Below are positions 2,845-4,014 of a DNA stretch of 38,076 bases, one piece after another. Source of the DNA: Candidatus Omnitrophica bacterium ADurb.Bin314. GTDB taxonomy: Bacteria > Omnitrophota > Omnitrophia > Omnitrophales > Aquincolibacteriaceae. The stretch spans positions 1 to 38,076 of the forward strand of contig MWBI01000172.1 of assembly GCA_002068945.1 (NCBI GenBank). Direction: 5' to 3'. A program made the translations under genes and the position numbers. The notes under the pieces are model-generated. The model was not told the origin of the DNA. It saw only the letters and a list, made by a program, of their open reading frames with translations, and did no database searches. Position 1 is the first letter of the stretch, and every line of letters starts with the position of its first letter.

Positions 2845-4014
2845 CTAGAAGAGCTCACCCAGGAGGAATTCGACGTCCTCGCGCTCGACCGGTTTTGGAT
2901 TCGCGGCAGTGGAGCCGGACCTGAGGGTCTCCGCGATGATCTTTTCCTTTTCGATCACGGGTTTCCCCTTGAAGGGAGACGTGATGCCGAGCGCGGTCTG
3001 AAGCGTCGTGATTTTTTCAGTGAGGTCGCCACCCAGGGCGCGGCTCATCCGGGCGTATTTTTCTCCCATGGCCTCACGATTCATCTTGATCGACGGAATG
3101 AAGCAGGCCGCGCAGACGAGGCCGTGCGGCACGCCGTAGAGAACGCCGAGAGAGTGTGCGATCCCGTGAATCACGCCGAGCCGGGAATGCGAGAATGCGA
3201 GCCCCGCGAGGAAACTCGCGAAAAGCATATCGTGCAGCGCCTTGTCCCGTTCACCGATATCCAACCTCGTAGGTTGGATATCGGTTGGGGCGGGTTTGGC
3301 GGCGGGAATGAGGCTCGCGCCGATCATCTCGATCGCTCGAAGAGCCAGCGTTTCGGTGAAAAGCGTCGCGTTCTTTGAGGTGTAGGATTCATAGGCCTGG
3401 ACAAGCGCGTCCATCCCCGAGTGGGCCATGACGCTCTCCGGGACCGTCTTCAGGAGTTCGGGGTCCAGGATCACCCCGGCGGCGAGGAAGGCGGGGTGGC
3501 GGATCGAGAGTTTTACTTTTTTCCCGGGATTGATGATGACCGCATTCAACGTGGCCTCGGAACCGCTGCCGGCGGTTGTGGGGACGGCGAGGAACGGGAT
3601 TCCTTTTTCCGTGAGTTTCCCGCCTTCCTGGTAATAGACGGGGTCCTCGTGAGCGTGATAAAGGCCCGCCGCGGCTTTCGCGAGATCAAGGACACTCCCG
3701 CCGCCGATCCCGGCGATCCACCGGGCGTTCGTGTTTTTGCCGAGCGCGATCACGTCGCGGATCTCCTGAACGGAAGCTTCCTGGAGCGCGTGGGGGTGCG
3801 CTTTCCCGCGGCAGAACCAGGCGGTTTCGACACCGGCTTTCTTTAAAAGGGGAACGAGACTGGATTTGAGTCCGTTCTTTTCGACGGAAGCGCCGTGAAC
3901 GATCACGCCGCGGGATCCGAACGAGGCCGCTTTGCCCGGAAATTCCAAGACGCCATTTTTCCCCGAAAGGACCTTGTCCGGGATGTGGATCTCGGAAGGG
4001 AAGGCGCCGGTCAT
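2845..4014 (-). CDS. Iron-containing (type III) alcohol dehydrogenase family protein
   Basis: A 389-residue NAD(P)-dependent dehydrogenase of the Fe-ADH/glycerol dehydrogenase superfamily. The dinucleotide-binding motif GGGSVLDLAKA is at 104-114 and the second family block PTTAGSGSEATLNAVI at 145-160. Metal ligands would be Asp202, His283 and His297 (VIHGIAHSLG, VPHGLV). The position that is His in FucO (D-A-L-T-H) is Gln206 here (MDALVQ), so one ligand differs; I recall the Gln form from some subfamilies. Residues 244-254 are encoded by a perfect in-frame palindrome and look inserted. The substrate is not predictable. The gene lies 106 bp after the cupin gene and ends at an intrinsic terminator. 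Confidence 0.88.
   Translation of the reverse strand: MTGAFPSEIHIPDKVLSGKNGVLEFPGKAASFGSRGVIVHGASVEKNGLKSSLVPLLKKAGVETAWFCRGKAHPHALQEASVQEIRDVIALGKNTNARWIAGIGGGSVLDLAKAAAGLYHAHEDPVYYQEGGKLTEKGIPFLAVPTTAGSGSEATLNAVIINPGKKVKLSIRHPAFLAAGVILDPELLKTVPESVMAHSGMDALVQAYESYTSKNATLFTETLALRAIEMIGASLIPAAKPAPTDIQPTRLDIGERDKALHDMLFASFLAGLAFSHSRLGVIHGIAHSLGVLYGVPHGLVCAACFIPSIKMNREAMGEKYARMSRALGGDLTEKITTLQTALGITSPFKGKPVIEKEKIIAETLRSGSTAANPKPVEREDVEFLLGELF
3253..3285. repeat. 33-bp perfect palindrome inserted in frame within the alcohol dehydrogenase gene
   Basis: ACCGATATCCAACCT (3253-3267), a 3-nt CGT loop, then AGGTTGGATATCGGT (3271-3285): two perfect 15-bp arms. The element is exactly 33 bp and coincides with codons 244-254 of the overlapping gene, adding TDIQPTRLDIG between two conserved helices. 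Length a multiple of three, in-frame placement and perfect symmetry suggest a small dispersed palindromic element, similar in principle to the Rickettsia palindromic elements found inside genes. Only one copy is visible here. Confidence 0.75.

Follow-up and report, generated by a model that had tools for sequence, protein, structure and literature searches.

The question raised by this locus is how a perfect palindrome came to lie, in frame, within a dehydrogenase gene. The window, i.e. the whole stretch of 38,076 nucleotides analysed here, belongs to Candidatus Omnitrophica bacterium ADurb.Bin314 (Omnitrophota) and contains a gene for an iron-containing alcohol dehydrogenase (Fe-ADH), whose product matches the domains PF00465 (E 2.7e-33) and PF25137 (E 1.2e-30). 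Inspection of arms and reading frame confirmed the perfect 33-bp palindrome described in the earlier note: two 15-nt arms, which are 100% complementary, enclose a 3-nt loop (ACCGATATCCAACCT-CGT-AGGTTGGATATCGGT), and the 33 nt correspond in frame to codons 244-254 (TDIQPTRLDIG). The features of the locus are as follows, in window coordinates:

2845-4014, minus strand: host gene of the iron-containing alcohol dehydrogenase family, uninterrupted open reading frame of 389 aa
3250-3288, minus strand: 13-residue stretch 243-255 of the protein (PTDIQPTRLDIGE), missing from 13 of 13 close orthologues in the alignment
3253-3285, no strand assigned: palindromic element with ACC...GGT ends; its 15-nt arms enclose the loop CGT, which reads ACG on the strand of the gene
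3253-3267 and 3271-3285: arms of the palindrome, 15 nt each with 3 nt between them
3260-3278, no strand assigned: core TCCAACCT-CGT-AGGTTGGA, one of 27 exact genomic copies

The symmetry was claimed to exceed what coding constraint produces, and the observation was confirmed. With arms of 9 or longer and loops of 3-10, the 38-kb window contains no perfect hairpin apart from this palindrome, the longest arm in 40 first-order Markov shuffles was 12 compared to 15 here, and DNA folding yielded z = -6.9. Alignment with the close orthologues (58-62% identity, same family of genomes) demonstrated that at the position where these read ...PALNAG-RDEDL..., the window protein reads ...PAAKPAPTDIQPTRLDIGERDKAL..., with 11 of the additional residues covered by the palindrome. 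The expectation that orthologues lack the encoded segment thus held with respect to its absence but not to its size, as the net difference is 13 and not 11 residues. Solved Fe-ADHs are likewise without the segment; it is located in a loop that joins C-terminal-domain helices, and the copy in the window most likely represents the survivor of an in-frame insertion into this loop. A second extension relative to the orthologues, comprising 6 residues near KAHPHALQ (~3784-3801), is non-palindromic.

A coincidence of coding or a conserved protein motif might in principle generate such a sequence, and P-II-like (L139, L140) and LepA-like GTPase (L169, L170) genes of relatives indeed yield look-alike cores by their own codons. 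Natural protein motifs explain these single look-alikes, not the hairpin family. The residues are absent from all ADH orthologues and copies occur in unrelated proteins as well as between genes; no orthologue with the peptide but without the palindrome was found, which refutes the protein-motif reading and leaves the whole explanation a negligible probability.

Further genomic copies, for which the earlier note had proposed to search, were readily detected. The core TCCAACCT-NNN-AGGTTGGA is present in 27 exact copies in the 1.41-Mb genome of the window (G000), whereas the reversed control pattern gave no match there. A same-genus genome contained no copy of this core, and a looser core, TCCAACC-N5-GGTTGGA, searched for across the phylum (384 genomes), was amplified only in G000 (27) and G023 (9). 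One of the phylum genomes, G312, is identical in sequence to the Omnitrophica MAG MHFD01000083.1 over the stretch compared, which identifies the phylum as Omnitrophota. The hairpin unit consists of ACC, 2 to 5 nt, TCCAACCT-RCG-AGGTTGGA, 2 to 5 nt and GGT, and thus measures roughly 29-35 bp including its feet, within the 20-40 bp of the dispersed imperfect palindromes known as REPs. Tabulated copies have unrelated flanks with boundaries conserved at ACC and GGT, and no target-site consensus was found beyond these feet. Spacers between core and feet are more variable than simple copying would predict, which counts against a mobile hairpin. In an empty-site comparison, the region upstream of dapB in G001 lacked the palindrome and had a shorter spacer; the yebC-ruvC stretch of G001 was too diverged for such an alignment. 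On contigs C62 (L017, from ~1671) and C94 (L021, from ~1497), common sequence begins at the palindrome and differs before it, a pattern resembling a duplication or rearrangement breakpoint at the palindrome.

The outer arms of some copies, including that of the window, are more symmetric than the family average. This would be in accordance with palindromes formed locally at each site by replication slippage or template switching, and such events could be the source of the outer-arm symmetry. For the core, however, local formation is refuted by the occurrence of the same 19 bp at unrelated sites genome-wide and beside a transposase gene, and as a general explanation we consider it very improbable. 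Most copies lie between or beside genes, several of them directly at gene 3' ends with the ACC foot overlapping the stop codon (TAACC or TGACC), as observed for YebC, Alr, a TolC-like protein and the transposase described below. This arrangement would also suit an operator, a terminator or an mRNA-stability element, whose spread would then be due to regulatory use by the host. Yet five recognisable enzyme genes also contain copies and the congener lacks the family, so that a regulatory origin appears unlikely.

The five recognisable open genes are those for Fe-ADH, NadE, GatA, QueA and a PPDK_N/sugar-transferase fusion; the evidence for a sixth coding case, a TIGR04073-like protein, is weaker. 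The copy in an aminotransferase IV gene (C141) was left out of this count, as the gene appears frameshifted. In four of the five genes the first unit encodes IQPTRLD or IQPRRLD, and in QueA DPTYEVG. Between the conserved ES and TSIF, QueA contains 26 residues compared to 16 in the congener, the additional residues being exactly the 10 codons of ACC...GGGT. The NadE copy lies between the CN_hydrolase and NAD_synthase domains, that of the fusion between PPDK_N and Bac_transf, and GatA of G000 carries an inverted pair of copies 23 bp apart. For NadE and GatA only the position and not a net gain can be claimed, as the insert region is length-variable among relatives, which in the case of NadE are the longer proteins. 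The fusion itself (L030:1479-6203) is a very long and unusual combination of PPDK_N and bacterial sugar transferase, with additional unassigned sequence beyond both domains.

Comparable cases occur in other genomes. GatA of G008 (L103, reverse strand from 1612) contains an imperfect palindrome, CGTATCCCACCTACGAGGTGTGATATGGGT, whose position and frame coincide with those of the pair in G000; it is missing from GatA of G022, a congener of G008, and this related palindrome probably represents an independent insertion. A DUF1016-SNase protein of G008 harbours one in-frame unit between its domains, and in G064 a fatty-acid oxidation enzyme carries an inverted double palindrome (L132, 1501-1544, ..VQPRRLDLNPTYAVG..) in frame between its ECH and 3HCDH domains.

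A candidate transposase is encoded by the genome of the window. On contig C146, a Y1_Tnp gene (671-1327, 219 aa) sits between hairpin copies at 643 and 1352, the arrangement of a cognate RAYT flanked by two REP elements. The downstream hairpin begins at or overlaps the stop codon and is identical to the window copy in 31 of 33 bases, both differences retaining the pairing as G-T; outside its core, the upstream copy shows less symmetry. The HuH and Y1 motifs of a RAYT are intact (HIH within THIH, WEGRF and YIHLNP). The protein scored 37 bits against PF01797 (cut-off 23) and weakly matched the TnpArep structure 4er8 (E 0.0014); the sole curated family matched was NF047646 (NCBIfam, REP_Tyr_transpos), where its 61.2 bits fall below the cut-off of 80, a point against the proposed mechanism. 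A second RAYT-like gene (G000:C88:1286-1918; L088/L039) is bordered on both sides by long hairpins of its own (ACCCACTCTAC...GTAGAGTGGGT).

Orthologues of the C146 RAYT (43-50% identity) in G056, G049, G048, G009, G020, G023 and G057 have hairpins of their own on either side, the stems of which differ yet stay paired, with the ACC...GGT foot and an ACC-loop-GGT tip present in most. Searching for the tip MACCTACGMGGTK yielded 42 matches in G012, 31 in G047, 29 in G026, 19 in G000, 15 in G008 and 11 in G056, compared to control counts of 0-3 per genome. Of 13 genomes with a close RAYT, 6 contained at least five matches to ACCTACGMGGT, as did 2 of the 45 genomes lacking one (Fisher p = 0.0009, or p = 0.003 when the window's genome is omitted, with genomes taken as independent and shared ancestry uncorrected). 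Against the association, G026 and G047 possess many tip copies without a close RAYT, though both assemblies are incomplete (75-77%). Many of the matches form inverted pairs with genome-specific spacing. This spacing is REPIN-like: 13 bp in G026 (L158 and others), mostly 55 bp in G012 (L161 and others), and 26 or 31 bp in G047. DNA uptake sequences frequently occur as inverted pairs as well, and the hairpins could accordingly be an uptake signal kept in this form. Against this, the genome contains 12 near-matches to the 15-base half-site, each of them within a palindrome, and lone half-sites were not found; an uptake signal is therefore even less probable than local formation.

Comparison with known systems revealed similarities to several of them. 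With REP/REPIN elements and their RAYTs (REPtrons; PMC2817692, PMC3116915) the Omnitrophota hairpin shares size, dispersal and some inverted pairs, the Y1/RAYT gene flanked by copies, and the co-variation of RAYT and hairpin between genomes. REPtrons, however, have a GT(A/G)G foot, whereas the feet here are ACC and GGT; GTAG occurs solely in the loop of part of the copies and is absent from those with the loop GCG or GTG. Moreover, tens of copies were found as opposed to hundreds (usually >100) for REPs, with a sizeable share inside genes. Rickettsia palindromic elements (RPEs) and CGTC repeats (PMC3733652, PMC10969869) are likewise in-frame palindromes in unrelated protein genes, often in one frame, as observed here for ADH, QueA, NadE, GatA and the fusion. 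Nevertheless, RPEs comprise ~150 bp, the Omnitrophota hairpin being much shorter and unrelated in sequence, and CGTC repeats are apparently without a dedicated transposase (PMC3733652, PMC10969869), in contrast to the candidate present here. A CGTC at one end was not found in the tabulated copies; a GTAG- or CGTC-tagged element was rejected, as neither tag is located at their feet.

R. conorii and Opitutus terrae are among the organisms in which in-frame REPs in protein genes have been described (PMC3733652), and REP inserts occur in tnpAREP genes of subclass 2.4 (PMC6006769); the phenomenon itself is therefore not new. These intragenic GTAG REPs resemble the present copies as in-frame inserts, single or as dimers, in flexible regions (PMC3733652, PMC6006769), but differ in tag, RAYT motifs and phylum. 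TIRYTs with their TIRtrons (RAYT group 1, corresponding to subclass 2.1) share the motifs Y[IV]HLNP and W[EQ] and the repeats beside the gene, and some TIR families are moderately abundant and self-complementary (PMC3733652, PMC6006769). In its Y motif the C146 RAYT is similar to subclass 2.1, but its HuH motif reads THIH and not NHxH; subclass 2.1 is listed without REPs (PMC6006769). The TIR motif GGGGWSAS is absent from the window palindrome and was found only elsewhere in the window. There, at 2825-2843 between the LpxL-like and Fe-ADH genes, AAAGGGGACAGTCCCCTTT matches GGGGWSAS of group 1 TIRs, possibly representing a second palindromic repeat family.

What was observed directly comprises the hairpin family, the additional residues and their absence in relatives, the flanked RAYT, and its co-variation with the hairpin between genomes. 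We conclude, with a probability of roughly 85%, that the window palindrome is a short non-autonomous mobile REP-like hairpin dispersed by a RAYT-type HuH/Y1 transposase. The earlier proposal of a small palindrome that is mobile and, like the RPEs, can be accommodated within genes is supported by the orthologues without the residues and by the 27 copies. The suggested Rickettsia-like mode in an unrelated bacterium applies to the behaviour and not to membership of the Rickettsia families, as CGTC is lacking, the sequence is different and a candidate RAYT is present.

Transposition by this particular RAYT and a single-strand mechanism are inferred from what is established for TnpA-REP and IS200-type HuH enzymes. 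The RAYT encoded between two copies would recognise the hairpin in single-stranded DNA and copy or move it in trans to new sites without target duplication. Most copies would settle beside genes, where selection would keep them in intergenic positions. Genic copies would be kept where the hairpin offers a stop-free frame in a loop or linker, adding a short hydrophilic peptide, usually IQP(T/R)RLD, and the enzymes tagged in this way are presumably still functional.

We tentatively suggest, at somewhat less than even odds, that Omnitrophota possess a separate RAYT/hairpin class, in which the tip ACC-TACGM-GGT and the ACC/GGT foot would be recognised instead of a GTAG foot, with genome-specific stems and ready in-frame insertion into interdomain linkers. 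If true, this class would tag proteins in the manner of RPEs and have an identifiable transposase. A literature search combining Omnitrophota, transposase and palindrome retrieved nothing. In-frame palindromic elements, best known from Rickettsia, here occur alongside a candidate transposase in an unrelated phylum. As this transposase gene is itself flanked by the element, the route by which such elements enter proteins becomes testable, and the hairpin copies provide a natural collection of short peptide inserts that core enzymes tolerate.
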